Shown here: positions 43,791 to 58,704 of the stretch, in pieces
Layout of the letters: every line of letters begins with the position of its first letter
How positions within the stretch are numbered: the stretch's first letter is position 1
Source of the DNA: Candidatus Nitrospira kreftii
GTDB taxonomy: Bacteria > Nitrospirota > Nitrospiria > Nitrospirales > Nitrospiraceae
Assembly (NCBI GenBank): GCA_014058405.1
Contig: CP047423.1
Span: 1,922,001 to 1,986,000 of the forward strand
Direction of reading: 5' to 3'
Length of the DNA stretch: 64,000 nt
Notes under the pieces: model-generated
Seen by the model: only the letters and a program-made list of their open reading frames with translations
Database searches by the model: none
What the model was told of the DNA's origin: nothing
Program-made: the position numbers and the translations under genes

Positions 43791-44426
43791 ATGGATACAC
43801 AACAGACTCCCAGACAGCTTACTCATGACGAACGAAAAGCAGCGGACGCAGCGTTTGCTGGTCGTCCATGCAATCCAGCCTGGTCAGAGTCCGCCAAGAG
43901 GGTGTACGAAGGCGTGATCGGGGCAATGCCAACTTCCCAGAATGAGTCAAGCTCGCCAGGTACCCAGCCTCTACCGACGGTTTCGGAGTCAGAGAGCGAT
44001 GTGCCTGCACCATTAGATGAGCTCTCAACTGTAACCCCTGAGAATCAGACCGTCTCTCGACAGCACGCCATCAACTCAGGGTTTCTCATCGATGTGACGG
44101 ACGATGCGAAAAAACTTGGACTGACTTTTCCTGTCACGGTCACGAAACCTCTGTGGGAAATGGGAATTGCACCGACTGCGGAGCTGTCAGACGAAGAGAA
44201 GTCGATACGGCTGCGAGACGTCCTAATGGCGTTTCGTCTCAGGCTTGCCACTCAAGGCACACTCTCGCCATTGCTTGATTTTCCGGCGATGTTGTCGATG
44301 CCGCCAGGGGCCATTCCTCAGCCGGTACCGTTGTTCGCATTGATCCAACCAGGCGAGCAGAATCAGGCGATGGTCACGCTCCTGCTGCCCAATGAAGTGT
44401 CAACCACGATAATTCCGATGAATTAG
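43791..44426 (+). CDS. DUF6573-like hypothetical protein
   Basis: A 211-residue soluble protein. The N terminus (HDERKAADAAFAGRPCNPAW) resembles a small conserved domain of unknown function and is followed by a low-complexity linker. Residues about 100-150 (NSGFLIDVTDDAKKLGLTFP, then VTVTKPLWEMG and RLRDVLMAF) match the DUF6573 pattern found on plasmids and mobile elements. Function unknown. No ribosome binding site is clear at the ATG, and the 3' end overlaps the convergent tRNA nucleotidyltransferase gene by four bases. Confidence 0.65.
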   Translation: MDTQQTPRQLTHDERKAADAAFAGRPCNPAWSESAKRVYEGVIGAMPTSQNESSSPGTQPLPTVSESESDVPAPLDELSTVTPENQTVSRQHAINSGFLIDVTDDAKKLGLTFPVTVTKPLWEMGIAPTAELSDEEKSIRLRDVLMAFRLRLATQGTLSPLLDFPAMLSMPPGAIPQPVPLFALIQPGEQNQAMVTLLLPNEVSTTIIPMN

Positions 44427-47080
44427 CCGGGTGTTTCTATACCGGCTAGTTGCTTCACGAGTCCCCGCTCATCGGACTCGGTCGTAACCTCCCCATTCAG
44501 GCGAGCCTCAAGGAGTCGGTCGAGGACTCTCTTGAACTGGGGACCCGGTTTCATCCCCATCGCCTTTAGGTCAGTCCCCTTCAGGATCGGCTTCACGTGC
44601 TGGTAACTCGTGAGAAAGGCCGAGACCTGCCGCCTCACCATTTCTCCTTTGCTCGTCGCCATCATGATCAGAAGTGTCTCGTCAGACAGCTCCGACAGGA
44701 GATGGTATACGTCTGCCGGTTTGAGCGGCGATCGCGTCCCGAGTCGACGCATTACCTTGTGGCAACCGCGACGAGCCGTCCTGAGCTTGGTCTCCTCGGA
44801 CTCGGGAAATGGAAATCGCTTAAGAACCTCTGATACCCCCCGCTCGGGTAAGACCTCCAGCATGGCCATCAGATAGACCAACCACACCTCCATTTTGCGA
44901 TCGAGATAGGAGAGGTGATACCAGTCGACTGCCTGATCGACGGCATCGAGGAGTGCAGCCAAACGATTCGACCACGACAGCTTGGGATGGAAGAACTTCA
45001 GGAGTCCCAAATCTGCCAGCCGTTTGATGGCCCGCTTTGGCTCACGCTCAGTGAGGAGCAACTTCAGCTCTTCGAGTACGCGATGTCCGGACAATCGATT
45101 GAAAAGATTCATCTTCACGGCTCCCTCGATGAGAGCCGTGGTATCTCGCCCTAAGCGGAACCCATAGCGAATCTCAAAACGAACGGCACGGAAGACGCGA
45201 GTCGGATCCTCCACAAAACTCAGACCATGCAGCACTCGGATGATCTTCTCGTTCAGATCCCGTTGACCTCCATAAAAGTCAAGAATGTCTCCGAAGCCCT
45301 TCTCGTTCAAGCGAACGGCCAATGCATTCATCGTAAAATCGCGTCGGTACAAATCTTTCTTGATTGAACTTTGCTCCACGGTCGGCAGCGCTGTGGGATA
45401 TTCGTAATATTCTGTTCTTGCCGTCGCGATATCCAACCTGAACCCATCCGGTAGCAACAAGATAGCTGTGCCGAATCGCTCATGCGTCTTCACGCGCGCA
45501 TGCAGTACGTCGCTGAGCTTTCGCGCGAAGGCAATTCCGTCGCCTTCGACCACGAAATCCAAATCAAGATTTTCGATGCCCAGTAACAGATCTCGGACGC
45601 AGCCTCCGACGACGAAGAGTGAGACCCCACAGTGGTCGGCCAACTGCCCGGCTTGCTCCAGCAACGTCACGAGGCGATGGGGCAACCGACTTCGCAGTAA
45701 CCCCTTCACGTTACGGTGCGACCTTGCGATTTCTACTTCGACCTCGCCTTGGTGTTGAGCCCGCACTCGAGCGACCTTGAGTACGTCGTCGTGTAACGTG
45801 CGTAGCAGATCTGTCCTGGTAATGACGCCGACCACTTTTGCGTCAGTGATGATCGGAACGAACCGTTGGTTCCGCTCGATCATGGCTGTTTCAATCTTAT
45901 GAAACGGCGTCTCGGTCTGAGCGGTATAGGCATCCGTCTGCATGATGTCACGGACGGCCATCTTGCCGAGCCGATGAAACAAGGCCTTTTGAATCAGCTC
46001 TCGGCTGACCAGTCCGGCGTAACGGGCGTTCTCATCCAACACCGGAAAGACATTGAGTCCATACGTCGTCATCCGTTGCCCAGCCTCCGTCACTGTTGTG
46101 CCATCCTCGATTGCCTTTACTGGGCGGGTCATGACATCCTGCGCCAGCAACGTTGGGCGATAATGTCTGGTCAGCAGCTCGACGAGCTTTTCTTTGACTT
46201 CCACGAGCGTCCGTCCTTTGACCGTTGCGGCAGCAGCGACGGCATGACCTCCACCGCCAAACTCTCGCGCGATCCATCCAACGTCGATTTCAGACCGGCG
46301 ACTTCTTCCAATCACCTGGACCCGGTCTTCCATCATCACGGCGACGATGACGGCGTCGATGTCGTGCATCTCAGCGAGTCGGTGGACGACGCCGGCCGCT
46401 TCACCACGGAGCCGATCACTGGTGCTGGTTGCGATGAGAACTTTGCGCCCTTCCAAGTAATGGATGTCGCTATGCTCCAAGAGATCGTTCATGAACGCCA
46501 CGGTATCGGCATCCAGTGGACGACGAAGAACATCCGTGACGATCGTGAGGTCCGCTCCGGACTCCAAGAGAAAGACACCGGCTTGGAGGTCTCGAGGCGT
46601 TGTGGAAACGAAGCAGAATGAACCGGTCTCTTCATAGAGGCCCAGAGCCAATACGGTGGCTTCGAAGGGAGTCACCGGTATATCCTTCTGGCGAAGGTGT
46701 TCTATGAGCAACGTCGTTGTTGCGCCGACAGGCTGCACAACCGACAACGAAGAACGACCGGCGCATGGAGAGTCCTTGTCAACATGATGATCGAACACCA
46801 CCACCTCGACGGAGCGGTCTTCGACACAAGACTTGAGTGATCCGATTCGATCGGGATCTTGGGTATCGACGAGGATCAGCCTGGTGATGTGAGAAAGATC
46901 GATCGTTTTGAGCTTGACGATGTCCAGATCGTGCACGGCGAGAAAATTGCGAACTGTTTCCTGAGCGCCAGCCGGCAAGACCAGCTTGGCTTCCGGAAAG
47001 AGTTTTCGCGCAGCCACCATGGAGGCCAAACCATCAAAATCCGCATTGCTGTGGGTGGCAAGGACTTCCATAGAGTGCAT
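44423..47080 (-). CDS. tRNA nucleotidyltransferase with N-terminal DHH phosphoesterase and CBS pair
   Basis: An 885-residue fused enzyme. The N-terminal DHH/DHHA1 phosphoesterase (THSNADFDGLASMVAARKLF, VFDHHVDKDSP, REFGGGGHAVAAAATV) is followed by two CBS domains (VMTRPVKAIEDGTTVTEAGQ; DIMQTDAYTAQTETP). A class II polymerase-beta nucleotidyltransferase then shows FVVGGCVRDLLLG and LDLDFVVEGD, and an RNA-binding helical tail closes the protein. This architecture is known from the A-adding or CC-adding enzymes of Aquifex-like and deltaproteobacterial lineages that finish the tRNA CCA end. A separate partner for the other nucleotides is not in the window. The start at 47080 or 47071 cannot be told apart by ribosome binding site. 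Confidence 0.88.
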   Translation of the reverse strand: MHSMEVLATHSNADFDGLASMVAARKLFPEAKLVLPAGAQETVRNFLAVHDLDIVKLKTIDLSHITRLILVDTQDPDRIGSLKSCVEDRSVEVVVFDHHVDKDSPCAGRSSLSVVQPVGATTTLLIEHLRQKDIPVTPFEATVLALGLYEETGSFCFVSTTPRDLQAGVFLLESGADLTIVTDVLRRPLDADTVAFMNDLLEHSDIHYLEGRKVLIATSTSDRLRGEAAGVVHRLAEMHDIDAVIVAVMMEDRVQVIGRSRRSEIDVGWIAREFGGGGHAVAAAATVKGRTLVEVKEKLVELLTRHYRPTLLAQDVMTRPVKAIEDGTTVTEAGQRMTTYGLNVFPVLDENARYAGLVSRELIQKALFHRLGKMAVRDIMQTDAYTAQTETPFHKIETAMIERNQRFVPIITDAKVVGVITRTDLLRTLHDDVLKVARVRAQHQGEVEVEIARSHRNVKGLLRSRLPHRLVTLLEQAGQLADHCGVSLFVVGGCVRDLLLGIENLDLDFVVEGDGIAFARKLSDVLHARVKTHERFGTAILLLPDGFRLDIATARTEYYEYPTALPTVEQSSIKKDLYRRDFTMNALAVRLNEKGFGDILDFYGGQRDLNEKIIRVLHGLSFVEDPTRVFRAVRFEIRYGFRLGRDTTALIEGAVKMNLFNRLSGHRVLEELKLLLTEREPKRAIKRLADLGLLKFFHPKLSWSNRLAALLDAVDQAVDWYHLSYLDRKMEVWLVYLMAMLEVLPERGVSEVLKRFPFPESEETKLRTARRGCHKVMRRLGTRSPLKPADVYHLLSELSDETLLIMMATSKGEMVRRQVSAFLTSYQHVKPILKGTDLKAMGMKPGPQFKRVLDRLLEARLNGEVTTESDERGLVKQLAGIETPG

Positions 47081-47242: not shown

Positions 47243-48187
47243 TCAATCTCTGCCACGACCGGAATGGTCTGATCGCTCAAGGCGATCACTGCGCTCCACT
47301 CGGTCGGATCGATCGCCTCGATCCACTTTATCGGGACGGTCAATCCGGTCGGATCGGTCTCGGCCACCGGATTGCTCATGTCGGTCAGATTGGTTTCTGT
47401 CGGAACCGTCGCGGCTCCCCTTTTCGCCACGATCGCTGCGTCCTCCCCGATCGCGCTCACTTCCCGACCCGCTATGATCGTCATCCTTAAAGAGCCGATC
47501 GCTCCGTTCGCCTTTACTGACTTTGTCACGAAGGGTTTGAAGACTCGCACGGCCTTCTTCAAAGTCGGACCCACGCCGTTTTACTTCTCGACTGAGATCC
47601 AAGAGTTCAGATGCACGATAGCCTTGTTTAATTCCTTCACCGACCAATGCTGTTCCATCTTTCGACGGAATCTTACCTTCTTTCATCACAGCAATACCTT
47701 TTGCGCCGGCTGCCAGAACTTCCTGTGTCGCTTTCTGACGCCCCTCTTGTTGCGCAAGCCGAGCCAATTCCCGGACTTCATCGATGGTCGCTCCACGGGA
47801 CAGGGCTTCAGCCATCGTTTCAATGGCACGATGGCGATTCCTCTCGTCTCCTCCACGAGAACCAGCCTCCTGCAACACCTCATGGGCAGACTCAAGCCGA
47901 GAGGTCATTTGTCGAATGACGGGGTCGATCCGTTTTGGTTCAATCCCTTTGGCCAATCCTTCTTTCACCTTGTTGGCCAGTGATTCGATAGGGAGGCCTC
48001 GTTCACCCGCCTTGTTCACGTGTTCGAGTAATGGGCTGATCTCCTCAGGAGGATGACCTTGTGCCGTCCGCAGTCGATTGATTTCCGTTCGATCTTGAGC
48101 CGAGAGAGATTCGGCCTGGGCTGTGTTGCCACAAAGGGTCAGTGCCAGACTCAAGACGATATTTCGGAAGACGGTTCCGTTGCCCAT
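47243..48187 (-). CDS. Secreted protein with Asp/Arg-rich repetitive tail
   Basis: A 314-residue exported protein: signal peptide MGNGTVFRNIVLSLALTLCG with cleavage after AQA, a helical region of about 190 residues, and a tail of about 90 residues made of SDR/RDR/DRxDR repeats (KVDRGDRSDRVERSDRLERS). The tail is low complexity with alternating charge. It starts four bases after the stop of the CBM lipoprotein gene, using TAAGG of that stop as ribosome binding site, so it is the fourth gene of the ECF sigma operon. No family is recognised. It may be an envelope-binding filament or polysaccharide-interacting protein. Confidence 0.7.
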   Translation of the reverse strand: MGNGTVFRNIVLSLALTLCGNTAQAESLSAQDRTEINRLRTAQGHPPEEISPLLEHVNKAGERGLPIESLANKVKEGLAKGIEPKRIDPVIRQMTSRLESAHEVLQEAGSRGGDERNRHRAIETMAEALSRGATIDEVRELARLAQQEGRQKATQEVLAAGAKGIAVMKEGKIPSKDGTALVGEGIKQGYRASELLDLSREVKRRGSDFEEGRASLQTLRDKVSKGERSDRLFKDDDHSGSGSERDRGGRSDRGEKGSRDGSDRNQSDRHEQSGGRDRSDRIDRPDKVDRGDRSDRVERSDRLERSDHSGRGRD

Positions 48188-48191
48188 TGCC

Positions 48192-48575
48192 TTACCGTAC
48201 GACCACGACTCCGTTTGTTTGCCCGAATCCATCTGTCACAAAATCGTCAGCCTGTGGCGGTGTCACCCATTGATCTTCGTCGATGACGTACATAAAGGCA
48301 TACTCGCCTTCCTTGAGCGGCATGACGACTGACCATAGGGTCCCGTTCACTCTCGCCATCGGTGTCGCGCGTTTGACCCATCCATTGAAGGTTCCGACCA
48401 GACAGACGTCCTTGGCCCCCGGTGCAGAGATCGTGAACTTGACGCCTCCGGGTGTGACTCTCGGTGGTTGGGGTACTATGGTTTTGGTGCAGCTCCCGGT
48501 TCCGATGAACGTGACGAGCACGCTCAACAGCGCGATCGAATTGAACAATCCATGGCGCCTCTGTTCTCTGGCCAT
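48192..48575 (-). CDS. Lipoprotein consisting of an AMPK-type glycogen-binding domain (CBM48-like)
   Basis: A 127-residue lipoprotein with signal ending GTGSC, followed by one immunoglobulin-like AMPK1/CBM48 domain: VKFTISAPGAKDVCLVGTFN, GW, ATPMARVNGTLWSVVMPLKE and YAFMYVIDEDQW. The FNGW...Y.F...D..W pattern is the glycogen/isoamylase-type binding fold. No enzymatic domain is attached. It is third in the sigma operon, after the anti-sigma protein that carries the same domain. By inference it binds glucan or a protein ligand in the periplasm. Confidence 0.82.
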   Translation of the reverse strand: MAREQRRHGLFNSIALLSVLVTFIGTGSCTKTIVPQPPRVTPGGVKFTISAPGAKDVCLVGTFNGWVKRATPMARVNGTLWSVVMPLKEGEYAFMYVIDEDQWVTPPQADDFVTDGFGQTNGVVVVR

Positions 48576-48628
48576 GGGGGCAAGAGTAATGGAGGTGCAG
48601 CCTCGTTGCAAGAGACCCGCTCTGTAGA

Positions 48629-49309
48629 CTAAATTGCCACATCAAGCACCGCATTCTGCGAACCAAATCCATCGGTGGCTTCTTCAGGCGCCAGCGGATC
48701 GGCGATCCATTCTTTCCCATCGATGACGAACATGTATTGATAGCGACCTGGTTTGAGCGGAATGGTCGCAGTCCACATCCCGCCATCAGACCGCTCTAAC
48801 GGGGTATACGACGGGTTCCATCCGTTGAAATCGCCTGCGACAGATACGGATCGTGCCTCCGGCTGCAGCAGGACCAGTCGCACGAACACCGTTGGCTCCT
48901 CTCTTGCGCTGGCCGCAATCGTCTGGGCCGGGGCCGTCGCAACCGGTACCTCTACGACTCGCTCCGGTATCACTGCTACCAGCCCCGCGACTGTCACGAT
49001 TGCGACGCAGACTGCTGCAGCGGCACCGGCCAGGTTCCACTCCAATGTCCGGGGTGTCGTCACAAGAGCCCATAACCGCTCCCATAGACCAACGCGATGT
49101 GGCACTACCTGAGCCTTCAGCTCGCTCAAGAATCTGGCCGACGGCACAATCCTCGTTAATTGAGCAGCCTGTGCCACCACCATTTCAAGATTGAGCCATT
49201 GCCGCCGCAACGTTGGATCGGTATCCACTGCCTGGAGAAATGCCACCCGTTCTTCCGGAGTCAAGTCGTGGTCCAGAAACTGTTGAATTAATTCTTCATG
49301 CTCATGCAT
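48629..49309 (-). CDS. Putative anti-sigma factor with periplasmic AMPK-type glycogen-binding domain
   Basis: A 226-residue single-pass membrane protein. The cytosolic N terminus (MHEHEELIQQFLDHDLTPEE) resembles anti-sigma helices but lacks the zinc HxxxCxxC motif. A transmembrane helix (about residues 80-105, AGAAAAVCVAIVTVAGLVAV) follows, then an extracytoplasmic AMPK1-CBM domain (SVSVAGDFNGWNPSYTPLER, YQYMFVIDGKEW). Its ATG overlaps the sigma-factor gene by eight bases, the usual sigma/anti-sigma coupling. Sensor domains on the far side of anti-sigma proteins control sigma release, so carbohydrate sensing is a plausible inference. Confidence 0.78.
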   Translation of the reverse strand: MHEHEELIQQFLDHDLTPEERVAFLQAVDTDPTLRRQWLNLEMVVAQAAQLTRIVPSARFLSELKAQVVPHRVGLWERLWALVTTPRTLEWNLAGAAAAVCVAIVTVAGLVAVIPERVVEVPVATAPAQTIAASAREEPTVFVRLVLLQPEARSVSVAGDFNGWNPSYTPLERSDGGMWTATIPLKPGRYQYMFVIDGKEWIADPLAPEEATDGFGSQNAVLDVAI

Positions 49310-49895
49310 CGGATTCACCACGTGAATTGAGTGATGCCAAATCACGGCTGAGTTGCAGTCGCCCCTTATACACCCGCATTTTCAACGTGTCACTGCTTAT
49401 GCCCAAAATCTGCTCCATCTCTTCGTAGTTGAGCCCTTCGACATGTTTGAGTACGAACGCTTCACGATATAGCGGTGGTAGACGCTGAATCGCTTGTTCC
49501 AATTCCTGTGCAACCTGTTGTTGAGACAACAGGGCTTCAGGGGTCCGGTGCTCAGCCACATGACTGTCCTGGACCTCATCGGCATCTAAGTCGTATGGCC
49601 CCTGTCCGGGGCGCTTGGCGCGTAGCCAATCCTTGCATTTATTTGCACCAATCCGGTAGAGCCAGGTCGAAAACTTAGAATCTGCACGAAACGTCGCTAA
49701 TGCCTTGAAGGCCGTGAGAAAGGCCTCTTGCGCCAGATCCTCTGCTTCGGCCCGATTGCCCACCATCCGGTAGGCCAGGTTGACGATCGCCGATGCATGC
49801 CGGTCGATCAGCTGCCCGAATGCCTCGTGATCCTGCTGGAGGCTACGGGTGACCAGTTGGGCATCATCAGGGGCTGCATCATGACCCGGTAGCAT
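49302..49895 (-). CDS. ECF-type RNA polymerase sigma factor (RpoE-like)
   Basis: A 197-residue sigma-70 family factor with region 2 (LAYRMVGNRAEAEDLAQEAF, FRADSKFSTWLYRIGANKCK) and region 4 (LPPLYREAFVLKHVEGLNYE, EMEQILGISSDTLKMRVYKG). No region 3 or C-terminal extension is present. It directs transcription in response to an envelope or extracellular signal and is followed by, and overlaps, the membrane anti-sigma candidate. No autoregulated promoter could be identified with confidence upstream of 49895. Confidence 0.9.
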   Translation of the reverse strand: MLPGHDAAPDDAQLVTRSLQQDHEAFGQLIDRHASAIVNLAYRMVGNRAEAEDLAQEAFLTAFKALATFRADSKFSTWLYRIGANKCKDWLRAKRPGQGPYDLDADEVQDSHVAEHRTPEALLSQQQVAQELEQAIQRLPPLYREAFVLKHVEGLNYEEMEQILGISSDTLKMRVYKGRLQLSRDLASLNSRGESDA

Positions 49896-50013: not shown

Positions 50014-50982
50014 CTAGAAACGATAGCTAGAGCCAATTGAGACAACATAATCCGGTGCACCATTCGAGAGGCCGACCGCTACGCCACCATTGAGACGCCA
50101 GGCAGCCGAAAGACGGTAATTCGTGGAGAAAAACACGTCTCTCGCATTCGGTAATCCCGGTACAAGCGCCCGATATTCCTCAAAATACACGCTCGCCAGC
50201 AAGTCCTTCGTGACATAATACCCGGTCCCCACATCGTACCAATATTGGTTGCGCAAGCCTAATGTTCCAGAGCCATCGGCCCGATCCGGGTCCCCGATGA
50301 TGTTATACCCCCCGTCAAAAAAGACCAGCCAGCTGGACCCAATGAGCTTCGACACCTCGACGCCATACCCATGATCGAACTTGCCGGTTCCCAATCCTTG
50401 GCTGGCATTGGCCGTTGGAAGCTTGAACCGCGCGGTGAGCGCAATCAGTGGCGTATACTCGTCTTCTTCAATGACATAGTACCGCCCTCTCAGAATAACG
50501 TCACCGATACCCGTGGTTGTCACCTTCTGGCCAGCAAGACGCGTTGTCGTACCGCAAGGCACATCATTATTATTACCGGAACCACTATTGTCCCTACGAC
50601 AGTCGTCATCCGACCCGCCACCTCCTCCACCGCTGCCAGACCCGCTGTTGTCATCATCAACACGGAATGCGGTATTCCCGACGACGGTCGTGCGCCCGTC
50701 CGTGATCGCCGTCACAGAAGGGATGACCAGTGAAATATCACCTTTCGAGAATAAGCGCCTGATTGATAACGGGGCATAAATGAACTCGCTGGTCGTATTG
50801 GTTCCAAAATTTCCGTGGCTATAGCTGGGTGTGAAACTGATCTGCCAGTTTCGCTCCGTCGCCGGTTGTGGCCGTTTATCGGCGGCATCCGCCGCCAATC
50901 CAGACTCTGCCCACAATCCACCGACTGTGCCAATAACAACGGTCATCACGACCATACGCACTCTCTGCATCCCTTTCACCAT
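50014..50982 (-). CDS. Outer-membrane beta-barrel protein, transporter-like
   Basis: A protein of about 322 residues with a signal peptide (VVMTVVIGTVGGLWAESGLA) and alternating amphipathic strands ending in the aromatic C terminus SIGSSYRF typical of outer-membrane barrels. An internal low-complexity loop (DDDNSGSGSGGGGGGSDDD, then CRRDNSGSGNNND) lies between strands and could bind calcium. It resembles MetA-pathway/OMPP1-like or DUF-type barrels annotated as transporters. Alternative starts at 51054 and 50970 are open. It is a single gene. Confidence 0.72.
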   Translation of the reverse strand: MVKGMQRVRMVVMTVVIGTVGGLWAESGLAADAADKRPQPATERNWQISFTPSYSHGNFGTNTTSEFIYAPLSIRRLFSKGDISLVIPSVTAITDGRTTVVGNTAFRVDDDNSGSGSGGGGGGSDDDCRRDNSGSGNNNDVPCGTTTRLAGQKVTTTGIGDVILRGRYYVIEEDEYTPLIALTARFKLPTANASQGLGTGKFDHGYGVEVSKLIGSSWLVFFDGGYNIIGDPDRADGSGTLGLRNQYWYDVGTGYYVTKDLLASVYFEEYRALVPGLPNARDVFFSTNYRLSAAWRLNGGVAVGLSNGAPDYVVSIGSSYRF

Positions 50983-51103
50983 CCCTTTCCGTACGAGAAA
51001 TTCGCACACTATGCGGTGATTCGCCTGCAAGTGCCTTGCTAAGGGTTTTGCCATCGACTGATCGTAATGCAGTGATTCCGAGAGGTGCTCGATGCCACAA
51101 CAG

Positions 51104-51163: not shown

Positions 51164-51787
51164 CTAGTTCCGACCGGACCGCTCAGGTCTCTCTCGATGC
51201 TCTGGGCGTTCTGTTCGCTCGATGCGCTCCATCCGTTCCGGTCGGTGCGGCCGTTCCATCTGCGTCATCCGGGCATGGTCTCGCCCATCGCGGCCATGTT
51301 CACTGGCCACGTGATTGGCTCGATCGAGTCCTCGAAGTTCGCCATGAGGATTTGATCGATGATCTTCCCGACGGTCTTGCCGCCTGTCCATCTGCCGTTC
51401 TTCTCTCCTGTCTTCTCTCCGATCGAGTTGTCGATCCTCACGACGATCTTCCCTTCGATCGATCTGTCGATCTTCTGTGCGATCGGCGCGGCGATCTTCC
51501 TGACGGACGTCATTGACCTGAGCCACCAGGTGCTCTTTCCCATGCGTTCTTCCCCGATCTCCCCCATCGTAACCACCGTTGGCGGACCCGTAACCGCTAT
51601 TCCGTGATCCCGGTCCACTGTTGAGCGACCCATGGCCGCTATTCATCGAGCCCGGCTCTTGGTTGTCGATCCGCACTTCCGCCCCTGCCATGGGGTCATT
51701 CATCCTGCCCATGGCAGGTGAGGTCAGCACTGAGAGTCCTGCGAAAGTTCCTATCATGATTTCTTTCCAACTAAGACGGTTCATCAT
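51164..51787 (-). CDS. Secreted Asp/Arg repeat protein
   Basis: A 207-residue exported protein: a hydrophobic N terminus (MIGTFAGLSVLTSPAMG), a Gly/Ser/Asn-rich segment (GSMNSGHGSLNSGPGSRNSG), then heptad-like DRREDRR repeats (about 95-145) and an RPERMERIERTERPEHRERP tail. AAGGAG lies six bases before the paired ATGs. It is a second, non-orthologous protein of the same alternating-charge style as the one at 47243-48187. Function unknown. Confidence 0.7.
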   Translation of the reverse strand: MMNRLSWKEIMIGTFAGLSVLTSPAMGRMNDPMAGAEVRIDNQEPGSMNSGHGSLNSGPGSRNSGYGSANGGYDGGDRGRTHGKEHLVAQVNDVRQEDRRADRTEDRQIDRREDRREDRQLDRREDRREERQMDRRQDRREDHRSNPHGELRGLDRANHVASEHGRDGRDHARMTQMERPHRPERMERIERTERPEHRERPERSGRN

Positions 51788-51845: not shown

Positions 51846-53264
51846 TTAGTCTTCCAATTCTGCCTCGTCCCATACGACCGTCGCACCGCTCAACTTCCCC
51901 TTCACTTTCACCAGTGAGTTGACGCGCACAGCAGCCAAGAATCCTGTACGACTTATGGATGTGCCGCGCACGCTCTCAAACTGATTGATGATGCTGGTAT
52001 CAACCGACACGCCTAAGAGCGTGATGACATTTCCGGTAATCGATTGAACCGGCCCCTGTAAATCAATATCGTTGTCGGCCGATCGCAGGTCAATGCGTGT
52101 CGCCACGACCGCGTTGTTCCCGCTGACACGGCCACGCACGCGGACATGATCACCAGATGACATGCCATTGAGGCTGGTATCCTTGAACTCTGTCTGGCTG
52201 TTCACGGTGACGGTCACACTGGGCAACTGTGTGAGCGTGAAGGCGTTCGTGCCAATTGTCTCAATGTCGCCTTCTAACCGCACACTCTCATGGAACTTCA
52301 CGTGTTTCGCAATGAGCAGACCGTTCTCCCATCGTCCTTCCGCTGAGAGCTTTGCACCCACGACAATCTCGTCGATCGTACCGCCACGGAATTCTGTGTT
52401 CCCAGTCGTCTGCACCTGCGTATTGCCGATGATGAAATTGCCGGTTCCGAGCACCTGCGTCACATAGCCCTCGACTTCGAATTCGTCGACCTGATTCCCT
52501 ATGCCGCGATGTTCCGGTTCGACCTTTGTAGCGGTGAGGGTCGTCGTCGCTGCATTGAAGACGGTCCCCTTTGCTTCCACCAGTAGGCCGTTCCAGCTAT
52601 TGCCGGATGGATTCGGCATGTCATTGATGAGGGCAGTCGTATAGATCACGGTCAGATCACCAACTTGGAAGGTTTTGGCTCCGTCGTTGTGGTTCTTGAC
52701 GAATCCACGCGCCTCCGGCGTGACGTTAATGAGTTTCTTTTCAATGTATGTTGCTTGTATGACGCCGTTCGGACGGATATGACCGCTGACTTCCACATGG
52801 TCGGTTCCTGTCACAAGATTCAGAACATTGCGCCCCGGAATGTTGTTGTCTATCAGGGTGTCGTTGTCGACCAGAACTGTTTGCCCCATCACGATCACGC
52901 TGAGACCATCCGTGGCTGCCGACTGCACTAGTCCTTCAACCGCGTCCTTCTGGAACACGGCGTTGGCCGACCGCTGAGTGCCGTTGAACGAGCCATTGAC
53001 CGTCACCGTCATCCCGACCTTGAGGTCGCTTTGGCTGCCAGATTGGCCATCGACGATGAATGACGAACCACTCGTCTCAAACTGTTTTCCGTTGACAAAG
53101 ACGCTGCCGAAACCGGTAATCGTGCCCGATGCAGACGCGGAGCCTGATCCGTTTCCAGATCCACTGGCGGACACAGGAGGAGTCGCCTCGCTGCCGCAAG
53201 CGGCGAGGAGTCCTGCGAGTCCGATTATGCTCACGATACTGTAGACACATCGCGATGTACTCAT
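51846..53264 (-). CDS. DUF5666-domain lipoprotein
   Basis: A 472-residue lipoprotein (signal ending GLLAAC) with a Gly/Ser spacer and several copies of the DUF5666 beta-barrel-like domain. Each copy follows the pattern GxGSVFVNGxxF...V...G...V.G. Examples are ITGFGSVFVNGKQFETSG and VGMTVTVNGSF. Exported DUF5666 proteins are frequent in this kind of genome; their role is unknown. GAGGA precedes the ATG. It follows the small lipoprotein gene by 27 bases and is probably co-transcribed. Confidence 0.82.
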   Translation of the reverse strand: MSTSRCVYSIVSIIGLAGLLAACGSEATPPVSASGSGNGSGSASASGTITGFGSVFVNGKQFETSGSSFIVDGQSGSQSDLKVGMTVTVNGSFNGTQRSANAVFQKDAVEGLVQSAATDGLSVIVMGQTVLVDNDTLIDNNIPGRNVLNLVTGTDHVEVSGHIRPNGVIQATYIEKKLINVTPEARGFVKNHNDGAKTFQVGDLTVIYTTALINDMPNPSGNSWNGLLVEAKGTVFNAATTTLTATKVEPEHRGIGNQVDEFEVEGYVTQVLGTGNFIIGNTQVQTTGNTEFRGGTIDEIVVGAKLSAEGRWENGLLIAKHVKFHESVRLEGDIETIGTNAFTLTQLPSVTVTVNSQTEFKDTSLNGMSSGDHVRVRGRVSGNNAVVATRIDLRSADNDIDLQGPVQSITGNVITLLGVSVDTSIINQFESVRGTSISRTGFLAAVRVNSLVKVKGKLSGATVVWDEAELED

Positions 53265-53291: not shown

Positions 53292-53732
53292 TTACGGTTG
53301 CTGGTTTCGTTCCTGGTCGAGTGAAATGCTCGCCGGTCGTGGGTTTTCGGCCAGGACGTCCGCCGACCAGCTGACCCGCGCCGGGCACCATTGCCAGATG
53401 CCGAGGGTGATGATACGCGTGAGTCCAGCAGGCATGCAGGCCAGTCGGTTGACGAACACCTCCCGATTGACCACCCTGGTCGAGGCTCCGCATCGGTTCA
53501 GATACGGCTCACTGGAGACGTCTCGCAGATCGATATGCGGTGTGACAAAGGCGACGATTGGCACCGGCAATACGGCGATGGACGAGTCATCCACCCACTC
53601 GCTGCCAGAACAATGTCCCTCGAGCCCGGCCATACGCTTCACATCATCGCGAACCAGCGTCGAGGTGCAGCCAGATAACAACAGTGTTGCGGAAAGTAGA
53701 TACACGGTTACTTGAGAATAGAATGGTTGCAT
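53292..53732 (-). CDS. Small Cys-containing lipoprotein, unknown
   Basis: A 146-residue lipoprotein with signal VYLLSATLLLSGC and a strong ribosome binding site (GGAGGGG). The mature part has several further cysteines (HCSGSEW, NRCGAST, LACMPAG, WQWCPAR) that could form disulfides. No family is recognised. It is the first gene of a two-gene unit with the DUF5666 lipoprotein. Confidence 0.68.
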   Translation of the reverse strand: MQPFYSQVTVYLLSATLLLSGCTSTLVRDDVKRMAGLEGHCSGSEWVDDSSIAVLPVPIVAFVTPHIDLRDVSSEPYLNRCGASTRVVNREVFVNRLACMPAGLTRIITLGIWQWCPARVSWSADVLAENPRPASISLDQERNQQP

Positions 53733-55456: not shown

Positions 55457-56218
55457 TCACCGCACATCTTGAAAGAATGCCCGAGGAATGACCGGCAGGC
55501 GGAACTCGACGTGGAGGATGATGAGGATCACGCGGAGGAAGCTCGTCCATATGCCCATTGTGATGAACTTTCTCGCATCCGTCACGACGGGAGGTGACAG
55601 GAGAAGCGGGTTCGTGACCTTAATGAGACGTTCGCAGAAGGCCACATCTTCTAAAATTGGTTGGTTGGGAAAACCGCCAAGTTTCTCGAACAGTCTTCGC
55701 CGAACAAAGAGGGCTTGATCTCCATAAATGATTCGGCTGCGAGTGCAGCGGAAATTATCCAAGAACGAAATGAATCGAAGCCGCCAATCATCTCCGGAGA
55801 ACCGGTGCATGAAGCCACCGGCCTGAATGGCCTGATCGGTTTCCATCTCATTGAGCCGTTGGAGTGCACTCACTGGCAAGACCGTATCGGCATGGAGGAA
55901 GAGCAACCACTCGCCCCGTGCCCGTTTGGCTCCGGCATTCATCTGGGAGGCGCGACCCTTGGGTGCCGTCAGAACAACATGTGAAGTGTGAAGCGTATAT
56001 CGTGAAGGGTCTGGCGAACGACGAAAGACGAGCGACGACCAGCCGTCATCGCCGGTTCGATTAGCAAACCCAAACGATTCGGCGATCGCGTAGGTCTGGT
56101 CGGTGCTGCCGCCATCGACGAGGATTGTCTCAAATTCTCCTGGCTGTGTGAGCAACGCCCGTAGGGTGGCAGGTAAGACCTTTTCTTCGTTGTAGGCAGG
56201 AATGATGACGCTGATCAT
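55457..56218 (-). CDS. TIGR04283-type family 2 glycosyltransferase
   Basis: A 253-residue GT-A fold enzyme of the rSAM/selenodomain-associated transferase 2 type. It starts MISVIIPAYNEEKVLPATLR and has ETILVDGGSTDQT, RASQMNAGAKRARGEWLLFL and the HADT metal site, then GDQALFVRRRLFEKLGGF. It transfers a sugar from a nucleotide donor to an unknown acceptor. The start overlaps the ferritin-like gene by four bases (ATGA). It is the last gene of the rSAM-DUF547-ferritin-like-GT operon. Confidence 0.88.
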   Translation of the reverse strand: MISVIIPAYNEEKVLPATLRALLTQPGEFETILVDGGSTDQTYAIAESFGFANRTGDDGWSSLVFRRSPDPSRYTLHTSHVVLTAPKGRASQMNAGAKRARGEWLLFLHADTVLPVSALQRLNEMETDQAIQAGGFMHRFSGDDWRLRFISFLDNFRCTRSRIIYGDQALFVRRRLFEKLGGFPNQPILEDVAFCERLIKVTNPLLLSPPVVTDARKFITMGIWTSFLRVILIILHVEFRLPVIPRAFFQDVR

Positions 56219-56850
56219 GCCGAACACCAGTCCGGCAGGAATGTCCGGACATCGTGTGCCCAAGCCGCGGCATCTTCATTGATACTGTCGAAGAGATCGC
56301 AGAGCGTGAGGACCATGGCGTCGGTCAACGCAAGATATTGCTCTGCCTGTCTCCTGAGTGACTGCGGATCGGTCTCGCCCCGCTCAACGGCACGGGCCAG
56401 TTGCTGCCTGCCGAAACCGTGATGGGCCTCTTCTTGCCGCAACAAGATCCGGCGCAGCCGGCCGAATGGCGCCGCACGTTTTGCAAGGCCTTGCTCGATG
56501 CGCGTGAGGATAGCTTCGCCCAAGCCCTCGAGCACGACTTGCTCGGCCAAGAACGTTTCCAGAAGATCATGACGGGCCAGTGCCTCAGCGAGAAGTGTTC
56601 GATATTCTTCCAAGGCTGGAAGGAATGGGGCATCGCGCAGATGTTTTGGGGCTAACCAGGCGATCGCCCCCTGAAAGACTACTGCGTGCATCGCCTCTTG
56701 TTTGGCCTGGCTAATGAGAAACCGTTGCGTTCCGGCGTCTTTGGACAATGCCGATTGGGCCTTTGCGCAATCATGGGCCATCCGCTCACCATGCTCCAGA
56801 AAGGTCAAGAGTCGCGCGATCGGCACTTTCTCGTCAGGACGGACCAACAT
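56215..56850 (-). CDS. Ferritin-like di-iron protein (MiaE-like fold)
   Basis: A 211-residue four-helix protein with two ExxH-type metal pairs, KQEAMHAVVF and RQEEAHHGFG, and supporting glutamates, as in ferritin-like di-iron oxygenases related to MiaE. An oxidation or hydroxylation role is inferred; the substrate is unknown. The ATG at 56850 lies inside the end of the DUF547 gene; the stop overlaps the glycosyltransferase start. Confidence 0.78.
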   Translation of the reverse strand: MLVRPDEKVPIARLLTFLEHGERMAHDCAKAQSALSKDAGTQRFLISQAKQEAMHAVVFQGAIAWLAPKHLRDAPFLPALEEYRTLLAEALARHDLLETFLAEQVVLEGLGEAILTRIEQGLAKRAAPFGRLRRILLRQEEAHHGFGRQQLARAVERGETDPQSLRRQAEQYLALTDAMVLTLCDLFDSINEDAAAWAHDVRTFLPDWCSA

Positions 56851-57652
56851 GGTTCTGCTCCTTGGGTGGTATTCCATTGAGGTTCCAGTCGTACTCGATG
56901 TACTCGATGCGATATTCTGATTGCATGAGGTCTTGAACCAATTCGGGATCGTTCACATAACGCGTGATGTAGACCAGAACTGAGCCGGCAGCTCTCATGA
57001 AATCCTCCTCAAACCACTTGAAGATCATGGAGAGCGACGCGACTTTCTTCACACGATCAAAATGATTTCGCGTCGGGTCGTTGATAAACTCCCTGGCGAC
57101 ACGGTCCAGCTGGACTTCAAGCTGATCCGGCTCATACGTCCAGGCTTGAAGCTTCGGACAAGACAGCGACGCGCATACAATAGCAAAATGAATCCGTGGC
57201 TCACGGAACTGTGCGATCAACACTTTTCGTTCAAGATCATAGAGATTGATGGTTTCACCGCCGACACGATATTTCCGGCCGATAAAATAGCGATACCGTC
57301 CCCAATAACTTGTGGGCGAGTACTTGTCGAGGATGCCCTTGATCGCGAAGGCGTTGTAGGCATTGATCCAGAAGGCCAGTCGCTCATTCCGCGTTGTGAA
57401 TGCATTGGGGTTCACTCGGTCGAGCTGCCCGAAATACCTCGGTAGCCGCGTATCAGACTGGATGGCAGGATAGTCGACGCTGCCATCTGTAACGTGGGCC
57501 TGTACCACATCATGAAACGCCTTGTGTGAGAACTCTTCTGGCGGAATCGGGTTGAGAGGAGTGAAGGATGTCGGAATTGTGGAGCATCCTGCAAAAACGA
57601 TCGCGAGGCTCACGGGGACGCATTTCAAGAAGCCCTTCGCCTTCGTCACCAT
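56834..57652 (-). CDS. DUF547-domain lipoprotein
   Basis: A 272-residue lipoprotein (MVTKAKGFLKCVPVSLAIVF, then AGC). Its DUF547 domain shows LAFWINAYNAFAIKGILDKY, then INLYDLERKVLIAQFREPRI and HFAIVCASLSCPKLQAWTYE, the family hallmark with H...C.S..CP. The Cys and His suggest a papain-like or peptidase-like active site, but the family's reaction is not established. It lies within an overlapping operon: its start overlaps the radical SAM stop and its stop overlaps the ferritin-like start. An in-frame ATG at 57670 is also possible. Confidence 0.87.
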   Translation of the reverse strand: MVTKAKGFLKCVPVSLAIVFAGCSTIPTSFTPLNPIPPEEFSHKAFHDVVQAHVTDGSVDYPAIQSDTRLPRYFGQLDRVNPNAFTTRNERLAFWINAYNAFAIKGILDKYSPTSYWGRYRYFIGRKYRVGGETINLYDLERKVLIAQFREPRIHFAIVCASLSCPKLQAWTYEPDQLEVQLDRVAREFINDPTRNHFDRVKKVASLSMIFKWFEEDFMRAAGSVLVYITRYVNDPELVQDLMQSEYRIEYIEYDWNLNGIPPKEQNHVGPS

Positions 57653-58704
57653 TGCACCGGGGTTTGCCATGCAGCAATTGGGTGCCGCAGTACCGACCCG
57701 ATCACGCGGCCGTCCAGCCTGTTACAGGACGATCGGTCTGAACAACGTTGGATTGCTTGCCGATCAAACCGCGCAAGGATTTCGTTCAGCGAAGACTCGA
57801 GGAGATTCCCAACGTCAGGGAGAGACAAGCAGGGGGAGACATTACCCGATGCATCAATGGCAATGCTGTACCGCCCAGCGTCGCAAGGTTTGAGGGTTTT
57901 ACCAGCAAGCCAGGCTACGTTGTCCTTCGCGTATTGCCGCAAATATCCAGGCGGGAGTACATTCTCTTTGAGCAGCCCTTCAAACACGGCCCGCGCCTGT
58001 GCACGCTCATACATCAACAAGGGTTCTTGCTTTCCGTACAATCCGACGTCCCAATGATAGACGCCGACAACGGGCAAGAAGCCTCGCTCTTGAGCAAACT
58101 GAACCATCTGGGTGACTTCCTGGCGATTGACTTCACTGACGATACAGGTCAGAAACATGGGATGATGGTAACCTTTCAGTAGCTCAAGACCACTGAGCAC
58201 GTGATCAAGTTGATCGGCACCTCGGATTCGTTCATATTTAATCGGGTCAAGCGTATCCAGGCTGATCGAAAGAGACACTGCGAGCTCGTTGAATGCTTCC
58301 ACCAGATTGGGGGTCAACCTGGTGCCGTTTGTAATGAGCGTAGTATGAAATCCAATCTGAACCAAATCTTGAAGAATTGGCACCAAGTCTCTTCGAAGCA
58401 AAGGCTCTCCGCCCTGTAAAAATACAAACCGAACGCCTTCCTTGTAGAGTCCTGTAAAGACTTGCCAAATCTCATCACGAGACAATTCGTACCGACCAAT
58501 GTTCAAGGGAAGGTTGCAGTATCCACAAGAGGAATTACAGCGAAGGCACATCTGAAAAATAGCAAGCACCGGGCGCTGAGAAATAAGATTGGTCAACCCG
58601 CCCCATAAGGCTTGATAGAGACCCGGCCTCCTGCCTTCGAACGTCGAAGGTTGCCTGCCGTGATCATGAAGTGTTTGATTGGCTGGCTTAATTTGTATCA
58701 GCAT
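57646..58704 (-). CDS. Radical SAM protein with SPASM-like C terminus
   Basis: A 352-residue radical S-adenosylmethionine enzyme. The 4Fe-4S motif is CNSSCGYC (Cys56, 60, 63), followed by FVFLQGGEPLLRRDLVPILQ (GGEP SAM site) and LSISLDTLDPIKYERIRG. The C terminus has extra cysteines (KPCDAGRYSIAIDASGNVSP, CLSLPD, QRCSDRSSCNRL), a SPASM/twitch-like set for auxiliary clusters, as in peptide- or hopanoid-modifying enzymes. It heads the operon and is divergent from a small secreted protein gene. Confidence 0.87.
   Translation of the reverse strand: MLIQIKPANQTLHDHGRQPSTFEGRRPGLYQALWGGLTNLISQRPVLAIFQMCLRCNSSCGYCNLPLNIGRYELSRDEIWQVFTGLYKEGVRFVFLQGGEPLLRRDLVPILQDLVQIGFHTTLITNGTRLTPNLVEAFNELAVSLSISLDTLDPIKYERIRGADQLDHVLSGLELLKGYHHPMFLTCIVSEVNRQEVTQMVQFAQERGFLPVVGVYHWDVGLYGKQEPLLMYERAQARAVFEGLLKENVLPPGYLRQYAKDNVAWLAGKTLKPCDAGRYSIAIDASGNVSPCLSLPDVGNLLESSLNEILARFDRQAIQRCSDRSSCNRLDGRVIGSVLRHPIAAWQTPVQW

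Follow-up and report, generated by a model that had tools for sequence, protein, structure and literature searches.

We analyzed a gene module of Candidatus Nitrospira kreftii that probably encodes an autoregulated ECF sigma/anti-sigma system for envelope signalling, which would receive an extracytoplasmic input through CBM48 (AMPK-type) domains and would have a carbohydrate as its likely ligand. The module lies in the window, i.e. the whole 64,000-nucleotide stretch of DNA that was analyzed. The evidence was computed and comprises the domains of the encoded proteins, a conserved gene set, a promoter motif shared by a small regulon, and a conserved binding pocket.

Genes of the module and their conservation

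A sequence-only reading of the window had described four coupled genes, and all four were recovered, on the minus strand. The first gene, SIG (49302-49895, minus strand), encodes a protein of 197 aa that matched the Pfam families Sigma70_r2 (residues 29-95, 8.6e-22) and Sigma70_r4_2 (residues 130-182, 9.7e-15) as well as NCBIfam sigma70-ECF TIGR02937 above its cut-off. SIG contains solely regions 2 and 4 of sigma-70 in about 200 aa, and is thus an ECF sigma-70 factor. The second gene, ANTI (48629-49309, minus strand, 226 aa), has an 8-bp overlap with SIG, which points to co-transcription of the two genes. LIPO (48192-48575, minus strand, 127 aa) follows 53 bp after ANTI, and DR1 (47243-48187, minus strand, 314 aa) another 4 bp after LIPO.

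ANTI consists of an N-terminal candidate sigma-binding part (residues 1-75), a transmembrane helix at about 93-113, and a C-terminal AMPK/CBM48 domain at about 140-226. The latter matched the Pfam families AMPK1_CBM (2.6e-11) and CBM_48 (4.5e-11) at residues 148-225, above the curated cut-offs, and both families were also found in 39/39 ANTI orthologues. Exactly one helix was predicted in both the sequence and the structure model, and the gene overlap, the helix and the domain all agree with the earlier description of an overlapping single-pass protein with an outer AMPK-type domain. The N-terminal part of the window ANTI had a sub-threshold similarity to zf-HC2 (0.013), and among the 39 members zf-HC2 was weakly detected in six and RseA_N in one, at E 0.001. 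The zinc motif CxxC/HxxxCxxC is absent from the window ANTI; it is present in the distant relative L287 and, partly, in L290. When the ANTI model was compared with known structures, the match list was filled by CBM domains and barely covered the N-terminal half. Position, overlap, topology, the weak zf-HC2/RseA_N similarity and the zinc-type N-termini of distant relatives suggest that ANTI is a single-pass inner-membrane anti-sigma factor, and the single helix together with the SIG-ANTI neighbourhood in 78 loci is characteristic of class I anti-sigma factors.

LIPO is a lipoprotein with a signal sequence and a lipobox cysteine, which was present in nearly all orthologues. Its residues 53-127 matched AMPK1_CBM (9.8e-10), and both AMPK1_CBM and CBM_48 exceeded the Pfam cut-offs. 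In the genome, AMPK1_CBM occurs only three times, in ANTI, in LIPO, and in a small separate protein without a signal sequence. This third protein is soluble and stand-alone (L073 9242-9601, G000:C1 near 2922780) and retains the AMPK lysine; similar genes were also found in Nitrospira genomes that lack the module.

DR1 has a signal sequence, a conserved core from about 30 to 235 that was modelled by AlphaFold as a helical solenoid with a pLDDT above 90 over most of its length, and a disordered low-complexity Arg/Asp/Ser/Gly tail with 19 Arg and 16 Asp in the last 78 residues. No Pfam family matched, and a Foldseek search of the model against the PDB yielded only helical-repeat designs and nothing at E<=0.001, which does not in itself establish a new fold. 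DR1 had previously been described as a secreted Asp/Arg-repeat protein. Secretion and the presence of the tail were borne out, but the tail had to be abandoned as the defining feature, because distant homologues have Gly/Ser/Met tails. The DR1 family itself is conserved in the module, and we can only guess that it acts as a secreted scaffold or chaperone.

The four-gene extent assigned previously was correct as far as it went, but it overlooked the upstream half of the regulon, a beta-barrel partner and a distant target. The system reaches upstream to 53790, and all genes of this part are again on the minus strand. PORIN (50014-51054, 346 aa) is an outer-membrane beta-barrel of the Phenol_MetA_deg family (Pfam, 1.1e-7), and in both Nitrospira and Acidobacteria the gene immediately upstream of SIG encodes a beta-barrel. 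Three predicted SIG targets follow: DR2 (51164-51787, 207 aa), by its sequence a second secreted Asp/Arg-rich protein and a conserved neighbour; a DUF5666 repeat lipoprotein (51846-53264, 472 aa; Pfam DUF5666, 1.1e-39), also a conserved neighbour; and a small lipoprotein with an LLLSGC lipobox and no Pfam family (53292-53732, 146 aa). In two lineages, represented by L148 and G734, a LIPO-type CBM forms the C-terminus of a barrel-like protein; the barrel parts were judged from the sequence, as Pfam recognized only the CBM. These fusions suggest that LIPO acts at the outer membrane in concert with the barrel.

Two further neighbours were noted. The minus-strand gene at 44423-47080 encodes an 885-aa fusion of a DHH/DHHA1 phosphoesterase, two CBS domains and a poly(A)-polymerase/A-adding tRNA nucleotidyltransferase, and its counterpart beside the module in some relatives is a nucleotidyltransferase of about 440 aa only. 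At 55457-58704, also on the minus strand, a conserved block encodes a radical SAM protein, a DUF547 protein, a protein of unknown function and a family 2 glycosyltransferase. It adjoins a beta-propeller gene; in one relative, G223, this gene has the SIG motif.

Within a set of 198 Nitrospirota genomes, full-length ANTI was found in Nitrospiraceae and, with 30-38% identity, also in distant families. Two arrangements were seen in 40 mapped loci, SIG-ANTI-LIPO-DR1 in Nitrospiraceae and LIPO-SIG-ANTI-DR1 in the distant families, and both recurred in 80 named loci drawn from 84,980 species genomes. These loci include N. moscoviensis (L113) and Ca. N. defluvii (L120) and, outside the Nitrospirota, a Vicinamibacterales MAG, another Acidobacterial MAG, a deltaproteobacterial MAG and a Rokubacterial MAG. 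The gene order, the conservation of which had been proposed as a check, is kept across Nitrospira, and the same genes are found in a different order in distant Nitrospirota, Acidobacteria, Rokubacteria and a deltaproteobacterial phylum. Apart from the SIG-ANTI pair, the measurable neighbour pairs were ANTI-LIPO (77 loci) and ANTI-DR1 (76 loci), and a 4-bp overlap of ANTI and DR1 is the usual arrangement in the distant group. Conservation of gene set and order rules out a coincidental gene cluster.

The distribution of the module is patchy within Nitrospira, a genus found in soil and water, with ANTI present in 27 of 59 sampled genomes. A decayed copy was found in G088 (L050 9000-9760). Here an upstream lipoprotein gene is joined to what is left of the ANTI CBM, both SIG and the barrel have been lost, and LIPO and DR1 still have open reading frames. 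Matches to the ANTI profile were obtained in 41/297 genomes of the Acidobacterial phylum and in 15/195 genomes of the phylum of L148, in both cases covering for the most part just the CBM and frequently lying within other proteins; several genomes of the latter phylum have the order SIG-ANTI-barrel-LIPO-DR1. Several genomes of the Acidobacterial phylum (L264-L267) also encode subtilisin-like proteins of about 480-520 aa that end in an AMPK-type CBM. In a Rokubacterial locus (L289 2429-3622), SIG and ANTI appear to share one open frame of 397 aa, a possible sigma/anti-sigma fusion.

Promoter motif and predicted regulon

Alignment of the sequences upstream of SIG revealed one conserved block, TTTAC-N16-CGTCTAA. 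A CGTC -10 element is typical of ECF promoters. Of 76 loci, 59 have the motif upstream of SIG (shuffle expectation 0.15); it was not found in the other 17, which include the Acidobacterial ones. Upstream of the small lipoprotein gene it was present in 31/31 orthologous loci (shuffle expectation 0.04), and it was absent from all 251 upstream regions of CCA, DR1, LIPO, ANTI and PORIN.

The whole genome of 4.13 Mb contains exactly three copies. P2 (49961-49988, minus strand) is the predicted SIG-dependent promoter of SIG-ANTI-LIPO-DR1, and P1 (53763-53790, minus strand) that of the adjacent upstream operon, which is opened by the small lipoprotein gene starting 31 bp downstream and continues with the genes for the DUF5666 protein, DR2 and PORIN. 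The third copy (G000:C1:2379889) precedes a distant gene for a 199-aa outer-membrane barrel (OMP_b-brl, 8.6e-11). When one mismatch was allowed in a 13-base version of the motif, no extra sites appeared, compared with eight for the reversed control. On sequence evidence, SIG thus has the promoter arrangement of an autoregulated ECF factor, i.e. a sigma-type promoter upstream of its own gene that is common to its predicted targets, in support of the proposal of the sequence-only reading that a sensor is in control of its own sigma factor.

The occurrence of the motif follows that of ANTI. Within the genus, the motif was found in each of the 27 sampled genomes that have ANTI (mean 3.2 sites), but in only 4 of 31 genomes that lack it (Fisher p 1e-12), a correlation that is partly built in, since the module carries its own sites. 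However, sites outside the cluster were also nearly absent where ANTI was absent, and genomes without ANTI had a mean of 0.13 sites, which is below the reversed control of 0.71. Recurrent targets outside the cluster in other Nitrospira genomes encode envelope proteins, namely paralogues of the small lipoprotein and the 199-aa OMP_b-brl barrel. Glucan-degrading or glucan-uptake genes were not found among the predicted targets. Matches with a 17-nt spacer and conserved ATGCAGGAC... spacers looked like chance occurrences in conserved sequence and were excluded from the targets.

The SIG genes of distant Nitrospirota are closely preceded by a related motif, TGTAAC-N16/17-CGTCTTA. Its few further sites include some in front of genes for small secreted Asp/Arg-rich proteins, which match the Asp/Arg theme of DR2.

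Possible ligand, proposed mechanism and alternatives

The ANTI model was closely similar to the CBM of AMPK beta (Z 13.9, rmsd 1.3 over 81 residues). In AMPK, beta-cyclodextrin is contacted by Trp100, Trp133, Asn150, Lys126 and Leu146 (PMC9788615). Their ANTI equivalents W164 (Trp100), W201 (Trp133), N219 (Asn150) and F215 (Leu146) are invariant in 39/39 sequences; in LIPO, W66 and N121 are invariant among the orthologues and W103 is conserved in at least 90%, the LIPO of one other phylum lacking the second Trp. Lys126 is replaced by Met in both proteins. With a domain above the curated cut-off, the AMPK fold and the Trp/Trp/Asn glucan contacts, the domains belong to CBM48, and the loss of the aromatic contact residues, which had been named as a possible refutation, was observed in neither the ANTI nor the LIPO domain. 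Because these residues are kept, carbohydrate binding is favoured, and a glucan or another carbohydrate is a plausible ligand; the identity of the sugar is not indicated. The earlier idea of an extracellular glucan sensor requires correction as to the site, which is predicted to be the periplasm, and the lipoprotein that accompanies the sensor probably belongs to the outer membrane. Its glucan part is an extrapolation, given the exchange of Lys126 for Met and the lack of glucan enzymes among the predicted targets.

We propose the following mechanism. The N-terminal domain of ANTI would retain SIG at the inner membrane, and its CBM48 domain would extend on the periplasmic side. The most likely signal is the binding of a glucan-type ligand or another carbohydrate at the site formed by the two Trp and the Asn; it would inactivate ANTI, probably by way of regulated proteolysis in the manner of RseA or RsgI. 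Free SIG would then direct transcription from the TTTAC-N16-CGTCTAA promoters of its own operon, the adjacent operon and the distant outer-membrane barrel gene. LIPO, which probably resides alongside the barrel at the outer membrane, may deliver the ligand to ANTI or compete for it, which would result in feedback, and DR1 may serve as a secreted helical scaffold in a complex with LIPO and the barrel. In its widest form, which we put forward only tentatively, the proposal is that a carbohydrate-gated ECF system exists in at least four phyla, in which two AMPK-type CBM48 domains, one on ANTI and one on an outer-membrane lipoprotein or barrel, sense one and the same periplasmic glucan-type ligand, DR1 represents a new family of helical scaffolds, and the response remodels the outer membrane and surface.

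The strongest competing explanation, possible but clearly less probable, is that the CBM48 domains are protein-interaction modules. LIPO, together with the beta-barrel and DR1, would bind the ANTI domain across the periplasm and report on the assembly or integrity of the outer membrane without any sugar being involved, as in envelope stress responses like RpoE/RseA or Rcs. Such a role would fit the predicted targets, which are barrels, lipoproteins and secreted proteins and include no sugar genes, the CBM-barrel fusions, by which the second domain is assigned to the outer membrane, and the replacement of Lys126. However, the glucan-contact surface Trp pair and the Asn are invariant or nearly so in ANTI and LIPO across phyla, and they are not obviously needed for the structure.

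Two other explanations retain a sugar ligand and take it from the cell itself. Glycogen or a periplasmic glucan released upon damage or starvation could serve as an alarm for lysis or carbon status in place of an external polymer, as might be expected for a domain of the glycogen-binding type in a genome that also encodes a soluble AMPK-CBM protein lacking a signal sequence; yet glycogen is normally cytoplasmic and the ANTI domain is predicted to be periplasmic, and we regard this explanation as unlikely. It is highly improbable that ANTI is inserted in the inverse orientation, with a cytoplasmic CBM that reads intracellular glycogen. AMPK1/CBM48 domains usually act inside cells, and this would speak for such a topology, but the N-terminal domain of ANTI, which is encoded by the part overlapping the sigma gene and is zinc anti-sigma-like in relatives, could then not reach SIG, and the partner CBM is located on a lipoprotein with a signal peptide. 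The carbohydrate-gated, periplasmic reading is preferred.

Comparison with known systems

In the openly licensed literature, we found no description of an anti-sigma factor with an AMPK-CBM or CBM48 domain, and the module is apparently a gene switch undescribed so far. This is in line with the previous statement that no such system was known, but sigma-I/RsgI is a clear functional analogue. If our proposal is true, a glycogen-sensor domain famous from eukaryotes has been placed outside the inner membrane in a signalling module, which occurs in cultured nitrite oxidizers (N. moscoviensis, Ca. N. defluvii) and in other phyla. The complete, very small predicted regulon and the named residues make the claims about ligand, topology and promoters directly testable, and families of unknown function, i.e. 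DUF5666, the helical DR1 family and the small lipoprotein at 53292-53732, have gained a context.

Sigma-I/RsgI of Clostridium thermocellum (PMC4711584) is likewise an autoregulated alternative sigma factor with a co-transcribed, single-pass anti-sigma factor that carries an outer carbohydrate-binding module, and its regulon was also found via the promoter motif. However, the module studied here has an ECF-type sigma factor, CBM48/AMPK domains instead of CBM3, CBM42 or PA14, diderm hosts, an additional CBM lipoprotein, DR1 and a barrel, and its predicted targets are genes for envelope proteins instead of cellulosome genes. A Pfam scan of the 39 ANTI orthologues gave no match to RsgI_N, and therefore, despite the similar working, the module is not a member of the sigma-I/RsgI family.

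RpoE/RseA-RseB (PMC8103513) shares with the module an ECF sigma factor, a membrane anti-sigma factor, a second periplasmic regulator in the operon and outer-membrane targets, but the operon described here lacks homologues of RseB and RseC, has a CBM48 sensor, and is accompanied by only three predicted promoters. FecI/FecR and the glycan-sensing ECF/anti-sigma systems of Bacteroides (PMC10766802) similarly combine an outer-membrane barrel, a membrane anti-sigma factor and an ECF sigma factor in the response to external compounds. The barrel of the module, in contrast, is small and porin-like (Phenol_MetA_deg); neither a FecR domain nor a TonB-dependent receptor was found in the operon, and Pfam detected no FecR among the 39 ANTI orthologues. 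At the level of the domain, the closest counterpart is the glycogen-binding domain of AMPK beta (1Z0M/1Z0N), which has the same fold and the same Trp/Trp/Asn pocket, whereas in the bacterial module the domain is found on a transmembrane anti-sigma candidate and on a lipoprotein, with Lys126 exchanged for Met and Leu146 for Phe.
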